Source: Prochlorococcus sp. AG-436-C05
GTDB taxonomy: Bacteria > Cyanobacteriota > Cyanobacteriia > PCC-6307 > Cyanobiaceae
Assembly (NCBI GenBank): GCA_003209795.1
Contig: QCPB01000010.1
Coordinates: 1-41,792 of the forward strand
Length of the DNA: 41,792 bases
Direction: 5' to 3'
Below are positions 10,432 to 35,482 of this stretch, piece after piece. The stretch's first letter is position 1, and the number at the start of each line of letters is the position of its first letter. The notes beneath the pieces are model-generated. The model ran no database searches and had not been told where the DNA came from. It was given only the letters and a program-made list of their open reading frames with translations. Both the position numbers and the translations under genes were made by a program.

Positions 10432-10495
10432 TAATAAACTGAATAAATCAAGTGTTTCCTTGTTTCCACTAATTTAATCAGTTTCTCCTACACAC
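10401..10495 (-). ncRNA. Yfr2-family-like small RNA
   Basis: Read on the minus strand, this segment has GTGTGTAGGAG at its 5' end and then a six-pair hairpin (ACTGAT/ATTAGT). Two copies of GGAAACA, separated by one base, lie at 10467-10461 and 10459-10453. It ends in a terminator with a T-run. Repeated GGAAACA is, as I recall, the hallmark of the cyanobacterial Yfr2 RNA family. GTGTGTAGGAG is complementary to the Yfr1 core, apart from one bulged base. A -10-like CATATT or TATATT lies just upstream. The exact 5' end is uncertain by about ten bases. Confidence 0.65.
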
Positions 10496-10568
10496 AATAT
10501 AAATATGACCATAATAATAAAAAAATGCCATGCTTGGTAGGCCTCTATATTAACTGTCACATAGCAAT

Positions 10569-10607
10569 AAAAACAAAAAGTACTCAAAAATTATCTTTGA
10601 GTACTTT
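10569..10607 (-). terminator. strong rho-independent terminator
   Basis: AAAGTACTCAAA pairs perfectly with TTTGAGTACTTT (12 pairs, seven-base loop). On the minus strand it is followed by TTTTTGTTTTT. On the plus strand only TTTAAATT follows, so it mainly serves minus-strand transcripts. Confidence 0.7.
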
Positions 10608-10673
10608 AAATTATCAGAAAAAGTGTGTGAGGAGTTTCTGATAGGTATAATCTACTCCTTGAGTAATTTAAAA
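10569..10673 (-). ncRNA. candidate small RNA carrying the Yfr1 core in a loop
   Basis: On the minus strand the hairpin arms TATCAGAAA/TTTCTGATA (10612-10643) enclose a 14-base loop containing CTCCTCACACACTT. ACTCCTCACACACT is identical over 14 bases to the core of Yfr1 at 35451-35464. A perfect 12-pair stem followed by TTTTTGTTTTT comes next. A -10-like TATACT lies at 10685-10680. The strand is inferred from terminator polarity. If read on the plus strand instead, the loop would be antisense to Yfr1. Confidence 0.5.
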
Positions 10674-11710: not shown

Positions 11711-12496
11711 TTATTTGCGAAATTTAGGAATTATAAGAGAGACAATACAAATAACACTAATTGCAGGGCCAGGAGAGAGATTAAAGACCAAAGAGAGAAT
11801 AAAGCCCAGAAGTGAGATACATAATCCAAAAAATGAAGACCTTATCATTGCAATTCTTAAACTCTGAGCCTTATTTAGCCCCAACAAAGTTGGAGTTGAA
11901 AGGAGTGATATTACAAGAATCACTCCCACTGCTGACATTGAACTAACAATTACTAATGCTGTTGTAAAACTAAGCGCAAGATTTAATAAAGAAACATTTA
12001 TACCACTAGCAGATGCTCCCTCTGGATCCAATCCCACATAAACAACCTTTTCATATCCAAAAGTCATTAGAAATATAAATACTGAAAATGCAATTATTGT
12101 TCTAAGTAAATCCTCCATATTTGCTGTCAACAAATCTCCAAATAATACTGCTTCCAAATCAATCCTTATGCCGAGTATAGGAATAATAAGGACTCCAAAA
12201 CCGAGCATACCAGCTAGAATAGTATTCATAACTGCTTCATAATTTTCGCTTTTTCTATTAGTTAAACTTTCCGCAATTACAGAGCCTAAAAGACCACTTA
12301 TAACACCACCAATTGAAGGATGAATTCCAAGCGCTAATGCAAGAGCAAGTCCAGGCAAAACACAATGAGAAATTAAGTTGACTTGTAATAATCTCTTATG
12401 CGTGATTAATACAGTTCCCATAGCTGGGCATAAGATCCCTGAAAATACAGTTATTATTAATGGAACAAGCCACCAGTTGTTATTTATAAAAGACAT
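11711..12496 (-). CDS. znuB: zinc ABC transporter permease
   Basis: This 261-residue integral membrane protein of the ABC-3 (ZnuB/MntB) permease family has about eight hydrophobic segments. The start, LVPLIITVFSGILCPAMGTVLITHKRL, and the LISHCVLPGLALALALGI segment are typical, including the family's conserved H-x-x-L-P-G. Together with the nearby ATPase and binding protein it should import zinc; the adjacent Zur-type repressor supports zinc over manganese. It is separated from znuC by zur, which lies on the other strand, so it probably has its own promoter in the 12497-12552 gap. Confidence 0.88.
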   Translation of the reverse strand: MSFINNNWWLVPLIITVFSGILCPAMGTVLITHKRLLQVNLISHCVLPGLALALALGIHPSIGGVISGLLGSVIAESLTNRKSENYEAVMNTILAGMLGFGVLIIPILGIRIDLEAVLFGDLLTANMEDLLRTIIAFSVFIFLMTFGYEKVVYVGLDPEGASASGINVSLLNLALSFTTALVIVSSMSAVGVILVISLLSTPTLLGLNKAQSLRIAMIRSSFFGLCISLLGFILSLVFNLSPGPAISVICIVSLIIPKFRK

Positions 12497-12516
12497 AATT
12501 CGAATGATTCGTTATG
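12494..12516. promoter_or_regulatory. inverted repeat between znuB and zur
   Basis: CATAA..CGAAT, one base, ATTCG-TTATG form a near-symmetric element (the left arm has two extra T). It covers the znuB start codon and lies upstream of the preferred zur start at 12553. Its position fits an operator for Zur autoregulation, but it differs from the palindrome before znuA. Confidence 0.35.
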
Positions 12517-12552
12517 ATCAAAAATGCGGCACATAAAAAGATCTTGAAAACT

Positions 12553-12948
12553 ATGGTAACTAAAACTGACATTACCAAAAGACAAGAACAACTTCTTGAG
12601 GCACTTAATAAGTGTGATGATGAATTGAGCGGACAAGAATTGCATAGGAAGTTGATCAATAAAGGAAAATCTATGGGGTTGACCACTGTTTATAGAAATC
12701 TGCAAATTTTGATAAAGCATGGCTTAATTCGTTCTAGACATCTCCCAACTGGTGAAGTTCTTTATACTCCTGTTGATAGAGATATTCATCATTTGACATG
12801 CGTTCAATGCGGAGAGACATCAAAAATGGAAGGTTGTCCGGTTAAAGATATTCATGTTCCTAAAAAAAACCCAAAAAAATTTCAACTTTTGTTTCATACA
12901 CTCGAATATTTCGGCCTTTGCCAAAACTGTTACCAAGCTCAAAATTAA
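12553..12948 (+). CDS. zur: Fur-family zinc uptake regulator Zur
   Basis: This is a 131-residue Fur-family repressor. It has a winged-helix half (KRQEQLLEAL, then GLTTVYRNLQILIKHGLIRS) and a metal half with IHHLTCVQCGETSKMEGC and CQNC, supplying the structural zinc cysteines. HLPTGEVLYTPVDRDIHH is very close to what I know of cyanobacterial Zur. In zinc-replete cells it should repress zinc uptake genes. The start at 12553 (MVTKTDITKRQ) matches the family; ATG at 12514 would add 13 basic residues and leave only 17 bases to the divergent znuB start. It sits between znuC and znuB, on the opposite strand. Confidence 0.88.
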   Translation: MVTKTDITKRQEQLLEALNKCDDELSGQELHRKLINKGKSMGLTTVYRNLQILIKHGLIRSRHLPTGEVLYTPVDRDIHHLTCVQCGETSKMEGCPVKDIHVPKKNPKKFQLLFHTLEYFGLCQNCYQAQN

Positions 12949-12974: not shown

Positions 12975-13733
12975 TTATTTTCCTTTAATAGAGCTGATGT
13001 TTATGGCATCTAATTTATCTTTTATTAGATCAGGACTACCAACTGCCAAAACACTTTTATCAAGAACTATTACTTTGTCGTAGTTATTTAGAGACTCGCC
13101 CCAATCATGGCTACTTACAAGTAAAGAAAAGCCTGCATCTGCTAGTTGACGAACAATTTTTAGAAAATCCTCTTTTGCAGGAGGATCCAAAGCTGCACAA
13201 GGTTCATCTAGAAGAAAGATTTTTGCCGGGGACATAAGAGTTTTTGCTAATAGCGCTCTTTGTTGCTGTCCTCCTGAAAGAGAATCGAGTCTTCTATTAG
13301 CCAAATTTGCAATACCTACTCTTTGCATTGTCGCCTCTAATTCACAACATTTATTAATCCAAGCATTAGGATTTGCTAGAAGAGCCTTGATTTGAAAGGG
13401 AGTATTACTTCTTGATCTTGAATACTTTATTTGACCAAGAGATACCAATTTTTCAACTGTAATGGGAAACTTCCAATTCATAGAACTTCTTTGAGGCATA
13501 AGTGCCACAAGAGATCTAGATCTATATAAATTGTCCCCATCAATTTTTATTTCTCCTTTATCTGGAGTATTTTGTCCTTGCAATATTCTTAAAAGAGTGG
13601 ATTTACCAGCGCCGTTTGGACCTACAAGCGCTGTTAGAGTTCCAGGTTTAATCTCAACCGATACCTTATTTAAAGCAGGCTTACTTTTTTTAGTGTATGA
13701 ATAGGTTAAATTTTCAGCGACTAAAGTAGCCAT
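12975..13733 (-). CDS. znuC: zinc ABC transporter ATP-binding protein
   Basis: This 252-residue ABC ATPase energises zinc import. Visible motifs are the Walker A GPNGAGKST (residues 39-47), the ABC signature LSGGQQQR, Walker B IFLLDEP with the following D-loop ALDPP, and the switch histidine in LLVSSHDW. Length is normal for ZnuC. It is transcribed away from znuA, and the 135-base gap between them holds a Zur-box-like palindrome that could control both. Read-through past its stop would run antisense across zur into znuB. Confidence 0.9.
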   Translation of the reverse strand: MATLVAENLTYSYTKKSKPALNKVSVEIKPGTLTALVGPNGAGKSTLLRILQGQNTPDKGEIKIDGDNLYRSRSLVALMPQRSSMNWKFPITVEKLVSLGQIKYSRSRSNTPFQIKALLANPNAWINKCCELEATMQRVGIANLANRRLDSLSGGQQQRALLAKTLMSPAKIFLLDEPCAALDPPAKEDFLKIVRQLADAGFSLLVSSHDWGESLNNYDKVIVLDKSVLAVGSPDLIKDKLDAINISSIKGK

Positions 13734-13831: not shown

Positions 13832-13848
13832 AAAATGATTATCATTTT
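13832..13848. promoter_or_regulatory. Zur-box-like palindrome between znuC and znuA
   Basis: AAAATGAT-T-ATCATTTT is a perfect 8-1-8 inverted repeat, extended outward by TG and TA. It lies 20 bases before the znuA start and 98 bases from the znuC start. The AT-rich GATTATC-type palindrome is the form of Fur/Zur operators. With a zur gene next door, zinc-dependent repression of znuA, and perhaps znuC, is the simplest reading. Confidence 0.75.
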
Positions 13849-13868: not shown

Positions 13869-15431
13869 ATGTCTATTTTTAAAAGACTTTTAGCAAATAA
13901 AGCAGGTTCAAGTAAGTCAATTATTAAAAATTCCGTAATCGCAGGAAGTATAATATTTTCTGGTTTTGGACAGGATGTTATGGCTAAAGAAAAGTCATAT
14001 GTAGCAGTAGAACCACTAGTTTGTGATTTAGTTAAATCAATTGCATTACCTTCTGATAAAGTTACATGCTTAGTGGATAGAAAGCAGGATGTTCATGACT
14101 TAAAAATCAATCCAAGACAAGCTCAATTACTGAATAAGGCTGATAAAGTTTTCACTCTTGGTAAAGAAATGACTCCAAGTATGAAAAATTGGGAAAGCAA
14201 AAAGCAAACTGTTGTTGTAGGTGTTAGTGCAATAGACGTAGATGATCATTCTGATCATGGAGGTCACGATGAACATTCAGCTAAGGTAGATGATCATTCT
14301 GATCATGGAGGTCACGATGATCATTCTGATCATGGTGGTCACGATGATCATTCTGATCATGGAGGTCACGATGATCACTCAGATCATGGTGGGAATGATG
14401 ATCACGCTGTAGGTGCTTTTGAATGGGCAGGTAAATTCAAGCTATCTAAGGGTTCCTACAAATGGTCATTTGCCAAGGTTGATGGAGAATATGCAGATCC
14501 TGCAATGAAGATGGTAATTCTTAAATCTAATGACATAGAGGGGTCTGAAGATTTAGCTAAAGAGCTATTAGGATCTAAAAACTCAATAAGCAGAAAAAAT
14601 AATCAGACTTTGACCCCAAGTAATAAAGCATTTGTTCTTAACTTTGATCAAAGGAAAGAAAGCACCGTTTTTAAGGTGAAAATCAAAGATGATGGTCAAT
14701 ATACATTTTTTACTGAACACATGCCTTTTGAGTTTGAGGCAAATGAACACTTTTTTAAAGACGTTTTAAATAGTGATGTCGAACCAATAGCACAAGTACC
14801 AGATGAAGGAGAGGGGCATCATCACCATCATGACCATGGAGGACTAGATCCTCATGTTTGGCATGATCCACATAACATCATAAAAATGGGGAATATTGTA
14901 AGCAAGAGTTTAAAGAAAGATTTATCAGTTTTTAATAGAGGAGACAGAAAACTAATTAATGAAAGATTCGAAAAAGCTGATTCGATACTAGAAGACTTAG
15001 ATTCTTGGATCGTTAGACAAGTAAGCTCTATTCCAGAGGAGAAAAGAGTAATTGTATCTAAACACAAAGCAATGAATTACTACGGTGAAGCATTTGGTTT
15101 TAAAACTATTAGTTTACTTGACTTTCTTGGAGACTCCTCAAGCTTAAGACCAGATAATATAAAGTCTGTACTTAAAGAACTTAAAGAAGACAATGTTTTA
15201 GCTCTTTTCCCAGAGCAAAAACCTCCTTCCAAATTATTAAGAAATCTAAGCAGACAAAGTTCTATTTCTATTTCTTCTGATCAAATATTTGTCGATGGAT
15301 TGATGATGGATGGGAATACGGTTTCAGTAGCTGTTCACAACACTTGTACAATTGTGGGTTCATTAGGTGGCAGTTGTGATAAAGAATCCGGCTCCTATCT
15401 TGAGTCTGAATGGTACAAACTTTCAGATTAA
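13869..15431 (+). CDS. znuA: zinc-binding protein ZnuA with extra domain
   Basis: This periplasmic zinc receptor has 520 residues, much longer than the usual 300 or so. Residues 1-39 are a signal peptide (ending VMAKE). Residues 44-120 are the first lobe, with DVHDLKINPRQ supplying a ligand-type histidine (His76). Residues 125-180 are a His/Asp repeat (DDHSDHGGH). Residues 183-300 are an additional domain. Residues 312-325 are a second histidine cluster. The second lobe follows, with GLDPHVWHDPHN, SKHKAMNYYGEAFGF and FPEQKPPSK, the usual ligand and hinge positions. The extra domain resembles one inside the adjacent GTPase. Zur probably represses the gene through the upstream palindrome. Confidence 0.9.
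   Translation: MSIFKRLLANKAGSSKSIIKNSVIAGSIIFSGFGQDVMAKEKSYVAVEPLVCDLVKSIALPSDKVTCLVDRKQDVHDLKINPRQAQLLNKADKVFTLGKEMTPSMKNWESKKQTVVVGVSAIDVDDHSDHGGHDEHSAKVDDHSDHGGHDDHSDHGGHDDHSDHGGHDDHSDHGGNDDHAVGAFEWAGKFKLSKGSYKWSFAKVDGEYADPAMKMVILKSNDIEGSEDLAKELLGSKNSISRKNNQTLTPSNKAFVLNFDQRKESTVFKVKIKDDGQYTFFTEHMPFEFEANEHFFKDVLNSDVEPIAQVPDEGEGHHHHHDHGGLDPHVWHDPHNIIKMGNIVSKSLKKDLSVFNRGDRKLINERFEKADSILEDLDSWIVRQVSSIPEEKRVIVSKHKAMNYYGEAFGFKTISLLDFLGDSSSLRPDNIKSVLKELKEDNVLALFPEQKPPSKLLRNLSRQSSISISSDQIFVDGLMMDGNTVSVAVHNTCTIVGSLGGSCDKESGSYLESEWYKLSD
14241..14408 (+). repeat. 27-nt tandem repeats coding DDHSDHGGH
   Basis: One unit at 14241-14267, a 21-base interruption, and four further units at 14289-14396 encode near-identical nonapeptides rich in His and Asp, followed by a partial unit. 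Near-perfect DNA identity between units indicates recent expansion. The run forms a flexible metal-gathering loop in ZnuA. Confidence 0.9.
14418..14768 (+). other. extra domain in ZnuA, related to one in the GTPase
   Basis: This segment encodes ZnuA residues 184-300. Key positions are FEWAG (184-188), GSY (195-197), DPAM (210-213) and FTEHMPFEF (281-289). The same landmarks occur in the same order in the COG0523 protein. Conserved His, Glu and Asp could bind metal. It is not part of the classical ZnuA fold. Confidence 0.65.
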
Positions 15432-15508
15432 TTTTTTCTAATAAAAACGATTTTCATTTCTTATTATTACTATTATTAAACTATTGTTTATTTAGTAAAA
15501 ATCTGTAA

Positions 15509-16864
15509 ATGAGCATCAAAGATAAAGTTCCCGTAACGATCCTAACTGGATTTCTTGGCTCTGGGAAAACGACTCTACTTAATAGAATATTAAGTGAAGA
15601 GCATGGTAAAAGAATAGCCGTAATTGAGAATGAATACGGTGAAGTTGGCATAGATCAAGGGCTCGTAATTAATGCCGATGAAGAAGTATTTGAAATGTCA
15701 AATGGATGCATTTGTTGTACTGTTCGCGGAGATTTGATAAGAGTCCTTGGCAACCTTATGAAAAGAAGAGATAAGTTTGACTATGTTTTAGTAGAAACTA
15801 CAGGATTAGCAGATCCCGGCCCTGTTGCTCAGACTTTTTTCATGGATGAAGAAATTAGTTCTGAATTTACCCTAGATGGAATCGTGACCTTAGTTGATGC
15901 TGCACATATTGAGCAACAACTAGGGAGGAGTGATGAAAGTTCAGAGCAAGTAGCATTTGCAGATGTTTTAGTACTTAATAAAACAGACTTAGTTTCTGAT
16001 GATGCACTAAATGCTCTTGAATCGAGGTTAAGAGAAATGAATAGAATGACTAGAATTATTAGAGCGGAGAATGCCAAGGTACCAATTGAAACAGTCTTAA
16101 ATCTTAGTGCATTTGATCTAGATCAGATTCTCAAGCGCAGGCCAACGTTCCTTGAACCCGAATATCCATTTGAATGGACAGGTGTTTACGACCTTGCTGC
16201 AGGTAAATATGAATTAATTCTAGAAGAAGGACCCGATCCTGAAATGTCATTAGTAGCTTTTACAAATCAAGGTTCAAACGAGGAAGAACTTAAAGATGGT
16301 GCTGAATCCTCTGTAAGACTTTATGCAGAAAAAGCTAAAAGTTTAGAACCTGGCAATAGTATTCCTTTTGGAGAACATATAAATCTTCAATTGGAAGATA
16401 AAGGAAATAAGTCTTTTATCCTGAACATAGAAAAGCCTACAAAAATAGGTTTGTTTACGCAACACACCGCTGAAGAATTCAATATGAAAGTAATTAAGAT
16501 TGATGAAAATAATTCAAAAGAGGTGCCTTTCAATGTTGAAAGGTTCTGGCAGGCAGAGCACGAGCATGATGATGAAGTAGGTTCAATTGCTATAGAGCGC
16601 TTTGGAGATGTTGACCCAGATAAACTAAACACTTGGATGGGCAGGCTTCTCTCAGAAAAAGGGGTGGATATATTCAGAACTAAAGGTTTCATAAGTTACA
16701 CAGGAAACCCAAGAAGAATCGTATTCCAAGGAGTACATATGTTATTTACCGCACAACCTGATAAAGAATGGGGTAACGAGCCACGGAGAAACCAACTTGT
16801 TTTTATTGGTAGAAATTTAGATGAGAAAGAGATGCAAAAAGGTTTTGATAAATGCCTGATATAG
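15509..16864 (+). CDS. COG0523 (CobW/ZNG1-type) GTPase, zinc metallochaperone
   Basis: This 451-residue G3E GTPase has a P-loop GFLGSGKT (14-21), ENEYGEVGID, the metal site CICC (67-70), the switch segment ETTGLADPGP, and NKTD (157-160) for guanine binding. The usual linker is replaced by a domain at about 220-331 that resembles the extra domain in ZnuA. A histidine-rich stretch (HEHDDE, 351-356) leads into the CobW C-terminal domain (from about 358). Linked to znuA and zur, it most likely moves zinc to client proteins when zinc is scarce; a cobalamin role is less likely. The next gene overlaps its end by 13 bases. Confidence 0.88.
   Translation: MSIKDKVPVTILTGFLGSGKTTLLNRILSEEHGKRIAVIENEYGEVGIDQGLVINADEEVFEMSNGCICCTVRGDLIRVLGNLMKRRDKFDYVLVETTGLADPGPVAQTFFMDEEISSEFTLDGIVTLVDAAHIEQQLGRSDESSEQVAFADVLVLNKTDLVSDDALNALESRLREMNRMTRIIRAENAKVPIETVLNLSAFDLDQILKRRPTFLEPEYPFEWTGVYDLAAGKYELILEEGPDPEMSLVAFTNQGSNEEELKDGAESSVRLYAEKAKSLEPGNSIPFGEHINLQLEDKGNKSFILNIEKPTKIGLFTQHTAEEFNMKVIKIDENNSKEVPFNVERFWQAEHEHDDEVGSIAIERFGDVDPDKLNTWMGRLLSEKGVDIFRTKGFISYTGNPRRIVFQGVHMLFTAQPDKEWGNEPRRNQLVFIGRNLDEKEMQKGFDKCLI
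16169..16501 (+). other. extra domain in the COG0523 GTPase, related to ZnuA's
   Basis: This segment encodes residues 221-331 with FEWTG (221-225), GKY (232-234), DPEM (243-246) and FTQHTAEEF (316-324). Compared with ZnuA, the distances are 22 versus 26 residues and 73 versus 71 residues between landmarks. It lies between the GTPase and CobW C-terminal domains. Confidence 0.65.
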
Positions 16865-17910
16865 AACAATTTAGCCCAAGAGGTATGTTCCATGAGGGAT
16901 GGACAGCAGAAGTTAATGATTACGCCATAGTTTGTGGTTGGGCCCTTAAAGGAAAGCAATTTATTGTCGGTGACGTAGCAGGAGGTCTTTTCGCATTTGA
17001 AGGGGAAACTGGAAAAGTTATTTGGGAAAAAGAAAATATACATTCTGGGGGTTTACTAGCAATGTCAATTCATCCAGAAGGACAAATTTTTGCAACTTCG
17101 GGTCAAGATGGAAATGTTCAAATTTGTAATTGCCAAGAAGGTAAAGTAATTAAAACAATAGATCTTGGCAAAAGGTGGGTAGAACACCTCAAGTGGTCTA
17201 ATGACGGTTTATTTCTAGCAATAGCGTCCTCAAAAAAAGTATATGTTTTTAATGAAATTGGTGAAGAAAAATGGATTTCAGAAGACCACCCAAGCACAGT
17301 AAGTGCAATTACATGGTCAAACAAAAACGAATTAGCAACTGCCTGCTACGGTAGAGTGACATTCTTTGACATAGTTAACAATAAAACAAATCAAAAACTC
17401 GAGTGGCAAGGATCATTAGTATCAATGGAATTAAGTCCTGATGGAGATATAGTCGCCTGCGGGAGTCAAGACAATTCAGTTCATTTTTGGAGGAGATCAA
17501 CTGGAATGGATGCGGAAATGACAGGATATCCAGGAAAACCGAGTCACCTTTCATTTGATAAAAGCGGAAAATTATTAGCGACTAGTGGCAGTGAAAAAAT
17601 TACAGTATGGAGCTTTATAGGGAATGGTCCAGAGGGGACTATGCCAGGAGAACTATTTCACCATACAGAACAGATTTCGAGTCTAGCCTTTTCCAATAAA
17701 GGTATGCTTGTAGCTTCTGGCTCCAGAGATGGCTCTGTGGTTGCTAGTTTTCTAAGAAAAGACGGCCATGGAGATCCTGTTGGTGCTGCATTCGCAGGAG
17801 ATTTAGTAGGCGCAATATCGTGGAGACCTGATGATTGCGCGCTTGCAGCAGTTAACGCAAAAGGTGTTGTTAATGTATGGAAATTTCAAGTTCGTACTAA
17901 TCTTTTATAA
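16852..17910 (+). CDS. WD40-repeat beta-propeller protein
   Basis: This 352-residue protein is built of about seven WD40-like blades of 40-45 residues. Clear units include AMSIHPEGQIFATSGQDGNV, LKWSNDGLFLAIASS, MELSPDGDIVACGSQDNSV, LSFDKSGKLLATSGS and LAFSNKGMLVASGSRDGSV. There is no signal peptide, so it is cytoplasmic. Its start overlaps the GTPase gene by 13 bases in another frame, which indicates translational coupling and a joint function. As a propeller it is likely a binding platform for the GTPase or its zinc clients; that is inference from context. Confidence 0.85.
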   Translation: MPDIEQFSPRGMFHEGWTAEVNDYAIVCGWALKGKQFIVGDVAGGLFAFEGETGKVIWEKENIHSGGLLAMSIHPEGQIFATSGQDGNVQICNCQEGKVIKTIDLGKRWVEHLKWSNDGLFLAIASSKKVYVFNEIGEEKWISEDHPSTVSAITWSNKNELATACYGRVTFFDIVNNKTNQKLEWQGSLVSMELSPDGDIVACGSQDNSVHFWRRSTGMDAEMTGYPGKPSHLSFDKSGKLLATSGSEKITVWSFIGNGPEGTMPGELFHHTEQISSLAFSNKGMLVASGSRDGSVVASFLRKDGHGDPVGAAFAGDLVGAISWRPDDCALAAVNAKGVVNVWKFQVRTNLL

Positions 17911-35424: not shown

Positions 35425-35482
35425 CAAAAAAGCCCGAATAACGGGCGTTTAGTGTGTGAGGAGTATGGGAGGTTAATCCCAT
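35425..35482 (-). ncRNA. yfr1: small regulatory RNA Yfr1
   Basis: Read on the minus strand there is a 5' hairpin (ATGGGA/TCCCAT), then unpaired ACTCCTCACACACT, then the terminator hairpin GCCCG/CGGGC with a T-run. This is the hallmark structure of Yfr1, a ~55-nt cyanobacterial RNA known to lie between trxA and guaB and to act by antisense pairing with mRNAs through its CUCCUCACAC core. A -10-like TATTAT sits at 35494-35489, placing the 5' end near 35482. Confidence 0.9.

Follow-up and report, generated by a model that had tools for sequence, protein, structure and literature searches.

The analysis concerns a stretch of 41,792 nucleotides of contig QCPB01000010.1 (hereafter the window) from Prochlorococcus sp. 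AG-436-C05, the genome of which comprises 1.14 Mb in 40 contigs and is about 72% complete. The window harbors a zinc uptake locus in which two adjacent genes code for the substrate-binding protein ZnuA and for a GTPase of the COG0523/CobW type. Both proteins carry one homologous domain, located at residues 184-311 of ZnuA and at residues 220-346 of the GTPase.

The zinc locus

The plus strand of the locus comprises znuA (13869-15431), the GTPase gene (15509-16864) and a gene for a WD40-repeat protein identified by profile match (16852-17910), the start of which overlaps the end of the GTPase gene. ZnuA, the substrate-binding protein of a zinc ATP-binding cassette (ABC) transporter, shows a signal-like N-terminus, histidine repeats and the shared domain. 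It matches PF01297 with an E-value of 3.9e-39 and 135.1 bits (cut-off 29) in two stretches, the better of which covers residues 296-482. The histidine repeats (DHSDHGGHD) are encoded directly before the domain by a tandem repeat with 6.3 copies of a 27-base unit (14241-14404, plus strand), and this histidine stretch has another length and sequence in two relatives (L042 and L049). The domain itself (14418-14801, plus strand), delimited by its motifs and an AlphaFold model (m81a62dc1ecb3), is a predicted beta-sandwich within the histidine-rich loop. In the GTPase, a cobW domain (residues 8-184, 206.4 bits) and a CobW_C domain (residues 358-450, 86.2 bits) were assigned by Pfam profiles, and the second copy of the shared domain lies between them (16166-16546, plus strand; motifs and AlphaFold model m0a41f559eea8).

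Divergent from these genes, znuC (12975-13733; ABC ATPase) and znuB (11711-12496; ABC-3 permease) are located on the minus strand. Between them, on the plus strand, lies a gene for a Fur-family regulator, probably Zur (12514-12948; PF01475). The best match of this protein in the PDB is 7ne9_AAA (E 2.5e-45), and the code 7NE9 appears once in the paper on Zur of Synechococcus WH8102 (SynZur; PMC9337993). According to this paper, WH8102 has a Zur box between znuC and znuA, and only synw0970-0973 are elevated both in the absence of Zur and at low zinc; the function of the last two genes is given there as unknown. We matched these genes to four genes of the window by gene order alone. A perfect 17-base palindrome between the divergent znuC and znuA (AAAATGATTATCATTTT, 13832-13848), a probable Zur box, corresponds in position to the Zur box between synw0970 and synw0971 (PMC9337993).

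Homology of the two segments

The shared domain has a length of approximately 115-125 residues and the signature [FW]EWxGxxxLxxGxY ... (G)xDPxM ... FTxHxxxEF. FEWxG, DPxM and FTxHxxxEF occur at residues 184, 210 and 281 of ZnuA and at residues 221, 243 and 316 of the GTPase, so that the spacings are 26 and 22, then 71 and 73 residues. The initial annotation had given these positions and spacings exactly and had read them as a sign of homology between proteins of different compartments, the latter point agreeing with the signal sequence of ZnuA and with the host families. Pairwise comparison bears the homology out: the Smith-Waterman score of the two segments is 67, a value reached by none of 2000 shuffles (mean 28.9, standard deviation 5.4, maximum 64), and blastp yields an E-value of 3e-5 (5e-5 in another run). 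With the ZnuA domain alone as query, phmmer matched the COG0523 proteins of relatives with domain E-values down to 4.5e-6. The ranges proposed initially (184-300 and 221-331) are slightly too short at the end, where the structure models place a last strand; we therefore use 184-311 and 220-346.

Further copies were collected by scanning the contigs of 84,980 species with a DNA pattern, which led to 94 stretches, and by searches with a domain profile, which was built mostly from the pattern-found rows and matches all 94 stretches. The pattern fixes EW[AG]G, L, G, Y, D, P and M, and these positions are thus invariant by construction in the 94 loci. The initial annotation had put forward a profile-profile comparison, a structure prediction of both segments and a survey of picocyanobacterial genomes as checks. 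The first of these, an hhalign comparison of a ZnuA-only with a COG0523-only alignment, gave a probability of 99.9% (E 1.6e-36). As many rows of these alignments came from the DNA pattern, the comparison was repeated with picocyanobacterial rows only (18 and 20) and gave 96.6% (E 4.7e-10), against 0.2% (E 0.3) for reversed sequences. In a further control, the domain profile found no match at E <= 10 in 12,002 reversed open reading frames (ORFs). Chance similarity of the segments is ruled out by the shuffles, the reversed controls and the profile comparison.

The domain lies outside the host folds

Absence of the segment from the standard folds, also claimed initially, holds for both hosts. In an alignment of ZnuA with 4utp, a solved manganese-binding relative, residues 321-482 align to 131-286 and residues 35-110 align weakly (9.1 bits) to 26-101; between these parts lie about 210 residues in ZnuA of the window versus 29 in 4utp. 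The domain profile found no match at E <= 1 in 29 further cyanobacterial ZnuA-type loci (L266-L294), the open frames of which are 312-516 residues long. The insert of the GTPase falls outside the part that aligns with YjiA, the only COG0523-type structure found in the PDB. Nor is it general to COG0523 proteins, since 37 of the 220 cobW-type ORFs in the sampled loci lack the domain.

The isolated ZnuA domain has no Pfam match at E <= 1. Among the 79 domain members, the most frequent Pfam match at E <= 1 is DUF7055 (7 of 79, best E 0.0016), and any NCBIfam family matches at most 2 of 79 (best E 0.0041). The ZinT family is neither among the Pfam matches listed (25 of 30 families, 79 members, E <= 1) nor among the eight NCBIfam families found at E <= 0.1. 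A PDB sequence search with the domain found no relative at E <= 10; 41 weak PDB matches (E 0.076 and above) lie mostly over the terminal histidine stretch of the query and were given no weight. In the accessible parts of the literature on zinc and COG0523 proteins, we found no description of the domain (PMC10957091, PMC9337993, PMC2770081, PMC6689063, PMC9010474, PMC8786288 and PMC12208494, among others). The domain thus falls under no known family, and its hosts themselves are ZnuA and COG0523 proteins.

Predicted structure

Both segments were modelled, and the order of their secondary structure elements is the same. For the ZnuA copy (79 domain rows), AlphaFold predicts a beta-sandwich with a mean predicted local distance difference test score (pLDDT) of 90.9 and a predicted template modelling score (pTM) of 0.85. 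In model numbering, its strands cover 6-12, 15-22, 32-39, 59-62, 74-78, 85-92, 96-102 and 128-131, and a helix at 43-55 follows the third strand. The model of the whole GTPase (49 rows; mean pLDDT 86.2, pTM 0.76) places strands of the insert at 223-229, 232-238, 245-253, 277-279, 290-294, 301-307, 311-317, 327-330 and 343-346 and the helix at 258-272, and includes one extra short strand.

A Foldseek search gave no match at E <= 0.001; the 50 matches listed are almost all influenza hemagglutinins (E 0.015-0.05, template modelling score about 0.3) and were taken as noise. VIA-align gave a best Z of 4.8, a score common for beta-sandwiches, to SEC14-like proteins over their C-terminal part, which we take to be a GOLD domain; folds of the jelly-roll-like and carbohydrate-binding kinds ranked next. 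If the strands of the domain follow a jelly-roll order, its topology implies that strands 1 and 3 would begin, and strand 8 would end, at one and the same pole, where a Glu, an Asp, a His and a Glu would meet.

Conserved residues

These four residues belong to the conserved motifs, represented by E185, W186, D210, M213, H284 and E288 in the ZnuA copy and by E222, W223, D243, M246, H319 and E323 in the GTPase copy. For the GTPase copy, this assignment also draws on invariant columns of the COG0523 alignment A3, part of whose rows came from the DNA pattern. Conservation was determined from 100 unique rows that profile or BLAST searches had returned (54 picocyanobacterial, 46 others); copies from pattern genomes (L181-L200) and all rows with gaps in more than 40 of the 125 columns had been dropped. 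The His of HxxxEF is kept in 99 of these rows and its Glu in 98, followed by the Asp of DPxM (97), the Glu of FEW (96), the Trp (95), and the Pro and Met of DPxM (90 each). After removal of seven rows identical to pattern-found copies, the corresponding numbers among 93 rows are 92, 91, 90, 89, 88, 83 and 83. It had been proposed initially that the conserved Trp, Asp, His and Glu form a metal site. Asp, His and Glu are indeed among the most conserved residues, and Trp is unlikely to act as a ligand.

A natural variant of the domain concerns both later motifs at once. In 17 unique Verrucomicrobial GTPase sequences, a long histidine-rich loop takes the position of DPxM, and HxxxEF is mostly lost as well; most of the GTPases of loci L239-L255 are of this kind. 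Motifs were counted by regular expressions, with four loci (L006, L007, L042 and L049) and segments shorter than 100 residues excluded. By a strict expression, both motifs are missing in all 17 histidine-loop sequences, and among the other 181 sequences 173 have both, three have DPxM only, four have HxxxEF only and one has neither. A wider expression finds both motifs absent from 15 of the 17, one sequence keeping a DPxM-like and one an HxxxEF-like match, and both present in 180 of 184 other sequences. The joint loss of DPxM and HxxxEF fits one common site.

The conservation also bears on the notion that the domain is a stable, ligand-free spacer, kept to hold the histidine-rich loop off the protein body. 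Such a role would go along with the insertion in flexible histidine-rich regions and with the tandem copies in one relative (G067), where a single ZnuA contains two different copies and the pair looks real (L049 2712-4556). The near-invariance of His, Glu, Asp and Glu from archaea to cyanobacteria, which a spacer does not need, makes this explanation very improbable. A second double ZnuA (G078, L042 4727-7345), in which two identical copies flank a run of X within one frame of 873 residues, was treated as an assembly artefact.

Distribution and host proteins

The survey of picocyanobacterial genomes shows that the shared domain recurs in the family of the window: the profile search found it in 31 of 386 cyanobacterial genomes, 27 of the 31 belonging to this family, and with the ZnuA domain as sole query 33 of 121 genomes of the family were matched. 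In one member with a genome of 2.3 Mb (G112; L046), the ZnuA next to a domain-bearing GTPase lacks the domain. According to PMC8786288, Prochlorococcus is nearly devoid of the ZnuA cluster CK_2462. Domain-bearing ZnuA proteins are present in many small-genome relatives and may lie outside this cluster.

Beyond the cyanobacteria, the profile matched 9 of 116 genomes of the class of the Haloplanus seed (two being seeds), 2 of 299 of the phylum of the Marinomonas seed, 9 of 149 Acidobacteria, 12 of 201 Chloroflexi, 7 of 299 of the phylum of the Paenibacillus seed (including one weak match, 1.7e-5) and 20 of 194 Verrucomicrobia (several matches being split or weak); each of the last five numbers includes one seed. 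Among viral contigs, none of 23 pattern matches was confirmed.

The 213 unique copies of the domain comprise 148 in COG0523 GTPases, 50 in ZnuA and 15 in other hosts, three of the latter being ZnuA-like fragments (L054, L057 and L210). The other hosts include stand-alone histidine-rich lipoproteins of haloarchaea and of the phylum of the Paenibacillus seed. A CDF exporter of Paenibacillus (L068 1-1245) shows PF01545 and PF16916 followed by the domain and a C-terminal histidine tail, and two Alicyclobacillus membrane proteins contain the domain within a histidine-rich loop. One of these (L094) has no Pfam match at 0.001; both resemble nickel/cobalt permeases of the NicO kind. The domain apparently tracks metal handling, mostly of zinc. 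In Natrinema, a stand-alone histidine-rich lipoprotein with the domain (L055 5872-6423) is encoded directly after the operon for urease, a nickel enzyme, and the metal of the domain need therefore not always be zinc. One haloarchaeal locus (L052 907-9102) encodes two COG0523 GTPases, a molybdenum-cofactor-type protein, an iron-sulfur scaffold and a cobalt-factor methyltransferase, followed by a domain-bearing ZnuA and ABC genes.

Histidine-rich sequences commonly accompany the domain. In the 60-residue flanks of the 50 ZnuA domains, the histidine content is 13.4% and 16.5%, compared with 1.9% in the rest of the protein. Among the 12 unique copies in other hosts that remain when the three ZnuA-like fragments are excluded (one copy being cut by the locus end and one being a fragment of 125 residues), nine have at least five histidines in some 20 flanking residues and all 12 have at least three. 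In COG0523 proteins, a stretch of the HxHD/E type follows the domain in 148 of 178 ORFs, duplicates being kept.

Origin of the copies

Two adjacent genes with homologous domains suggest that the module was copied from one to the other within the locus, as the initial annotation had proposed. The domain trees speak against this. In a tree of 40 rows and 115 columns, which has long branches and was calculated with one model, the copies of ZnuA and the lipoproteins form one side (95/87), and those of COG0523, CDF and membrane-loop proteins the other. The ZnuA copy of the window groups with ZnuA copies of a Verrucomicrobial locus (L115) and of Bacillota (L231 and L232) with a support of 100/97. 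A forced clade of the picocyanobacterial ZnuA and COG0523 copies is rejected (difference in log-likelihood 46.8; approximately unbiased test, p-AU 0.00013). A second tree, with 97 rows, is largely concordant; in it, however, two Rubrobacter GTPase copies lie beside the ZnuA group, and two Bryobacter GTPase copies join those of the CDF and membrane-loop proteins. Furthermore, the domain is found in both kinds of host in distant bacteria and archaea, and the Verrucomicrobial contig L115 contains consecutive genes for COG0523, WD40, ZnuA, ZnuC and ZnuB, of which those for the GTPase and ZnuA encode the domain. Copying within the locus thus appears extremely unlikely.

A tree of the ZnuA cores gives a different grouping. 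The core of the window protein falls together with 24 domain-less cyanobacterial and three other picocyanobacterial cores (97/93), and the domain-bearing cores of haloarchaea, desulfobacteria and L231 are placed elsewhere (98/98), together with the domain-less L046, which sits on a long branch. The tree leaves the Verrucomicrobial core unplaced. It requires the domain to have been gained or lost four times, and the starred branches force at least three such events. Because core and domain group differently, the domain probably entered the histidine-rich loop of the window ZnuA separately. It has probably moved between ZnuA lineages and into the loop each time, losses being indistinguishable from gains.

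The WD40 partner gene and possible functions

A WD40 gene lies directly downstream of the domain-bearing GTPase gene in all 20 picocyanobacterial loci examined that hold the GTPase gene. Of 71 other COG0523 loci, 57 extend for at least 900 nt beyond the GTPase gene (14 are shorter), and 32 of these 57 show the same arrangement; the pair recurs in picocyanobacteria, Verrucomicrobia, Chloroflexi and Acidobacteria. Haas et al. (2009) pointed to WD40 and znuABC genes in the neighbourhood of COG0523 subfamily 5 (PMC2770081); the accessible part of their account of this subfamily does not mention the insert.

This neighbourhood raises the idea that the domain is a docking surface which recognises a partner, whether the WD40 protein, the ABC permease, a client metalloenzyme or a second copy of itself, and gathers zinc carriers, itself binding no metal. 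The C-terminal domain of COG0523 proteins is portrayed as variable, with a supposed role in partner recruitment (PMC12208494), and the best weak structural neighbours of the model (Z 4.8 and below) include GOLD-type domains and carbohydrate-binding modules. On the other hand, only one of 30 loci with a non-COG0523 host (L052-L150) contains a WD40 gene, namely L115, which also holds a domain-bearing COG0523 gene. Moreover, the most conserved positions are acidic residues and His together with Trp, Gly and Tyr, not a variable surface, and the histidine-rich loop in place of DPxM points to a metal. We regard docking as rather unlikely, and nevertheless rank it next to the reading that we consider most likely, that is, the holding or transfer of zinc.

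Sequence and predicted fold suggest that the domain may bind metal, and we lean towards regarding it as a portable zinc-holding or zinc-transfer module that would work with nearby histidine-rich stretches. This reading is favoured since a histidine-rich loop replaces DPxM in one Verrucomicrobial group and since histidine-rich flanks occur in four unrelated kinds of hosts. The locus context, with the gene for a Zur-type regulator and the Zur-box-like palindrome, points the same way, as does the response of synw0970-0973 in WH8102 to low zinc and to loss of Zur (PMC9337993). A weak, exchangeable Zn(II) site might be located at one pole of the sandwich and formed by the Glu of FEW at the start of strand 1, the Asp of DPxM at the start of strand 3, and the His and Glu of HxxxEF at the end of strand 8. 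In ZnuA, this putative site would accept zinc from the histidine-rich loop and deliver it to the cleft; its counterpart in the COG0523 GTPase would relay zinc between the HxHDD stretch and the CxCC site. The CxCC motif is present in the GTPase of the window, and GCICC is invariant in alignment A3. Under zinc scarcity, a single module could thus serve both import and cytoplasmic delivery in the picocyanobacterial zur regulon.

More tentatively, the domain may be a horizontally mobile zinc-relay domain which bacteria and archaea employ on either side of the membrane and which has repeatedly been inserted in the histidine-rich loops of importers and exporters, of lipoproteins and of GTPase chaperones. 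It would mark, in picocyanobacteria, the two ends of a path on which ZnuA captures zinc in the periplasm and the COG0523 protein delivers it in a GTP-driven manner, with the WD40 protein as a third partner.

Several observations weigh against a zinc-holding or zinc-transfer function. At least five histidines in 20 flanking residues are found in only 2 of 148 COG0523 copies, which are the great majority of copies; except for the HxHD/E stretch, their surroundings contain little histidine. The histidine-rich loop also occurs in domain-less ZnuA proteins, and the histidine-rich flanks in ZnuA therefore follow in part from the place of insertion. The 17 histidine-loop sequences may represent one clade and one event, and Trp and Met are poor zinc ligands. 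Finally, most sampled genomes do not contain the domain, and the 37 domain-less cobW-type ORFs include COG0523 genes beside domain-bearing ZnuA proteins of haloarchaea (L052 and L054, each with two such genes close to znuA). Zinc handling thus has no general need for the domain.

A related view is that the domain acts as a zinc sensor or gate: zinc binding would alter the reach of the histidine loop or the nucleotide cycle of the GTPase, so that transfer takes place only above or below a certain zinc level. The location between the GTPase domain and CobW_C would suit such a function, as would that in the ZnuA loop, which is termed possibly regulatory in the title of a work cited in PMC8786288. 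The data do not tell a gate from a store, however, and stand-alone copies have nothing to gate; we consider this view improbable.

Relation to known systems

The ZnuA of the window is a regular member of its family (PF01297; zinc- and manganese-binding substrate proteins) with both lobes and the histidine-rich loop, and differs from its closest solved relative by about 210 residues in place of about 29. Likewise, the GTPase shares the GTPase domain, CxCC and CobW_C with the COG0523/G3E proteins YjiA, CobW and ZigA, whereas YjiA does not align over the insert. The window GTPase remains well below the cut-offs of the NCBIfam models for CobW, ZigA and the YjiA-type GTPase.

Extra zinc-handling domains fused to ZnuA, or partnering it, are known from AdcA, a ZnuA protein with a second, ZinT-type domain, and from ZinT. 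The domain described here differs in being located in the ZnuA loop instead of C-terminally and in occurring in cytoplasmic proteins as well. AdcA is termed a "two-domain lipoprotein" (PMC7858048). The periplasmic chaperone AztD, a beta-propeller, hands zinc over to the ZnuA-type protein AztC and has ABC, Fur and CobW-type neighbour genes (PMC6689063); in contrast, the domain of the window is a predicted sandwich. The WD40 protein of the window shows no signal sequence by eye, unlike the periplasmic AztD, and its gene follows that of the GTPase. The Anabaena exoprotein ZepA is a secreted zinc protein with an Ig-like beta-sandwich domain encoded in zinc neighbourhoods (PMC10957091). Compared by description only, ZepA differs by a second domain described as a new fold and by a PEP-CTERM signal.

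The new results are the domain as such, how widely it occurs, the fact that unrelated proteins hold it in histidine-rich loops, and the tree-based rejection of copying within the locus. They address two questions, namely the source of zinc for COG0523 GTPases and the role of the histidine-rich loop of ZnuA. One small domain which occurs in ZnuA, a GTPase, an exporter and lipoproteins, and which can be made alone, would provide a common handle on zinc transfer in organisms living at extremely low zinc. In addition, two genes left uncharacterised in the zur study of WH8102 (PMC9337993), matched here by gene order only, gain a testable function.

Elsewhere in the window, Rfam assigns the small RNAs Cyano-1, Yfr10 and Yfr1 at positions 10432-10642 and 35429-35482.

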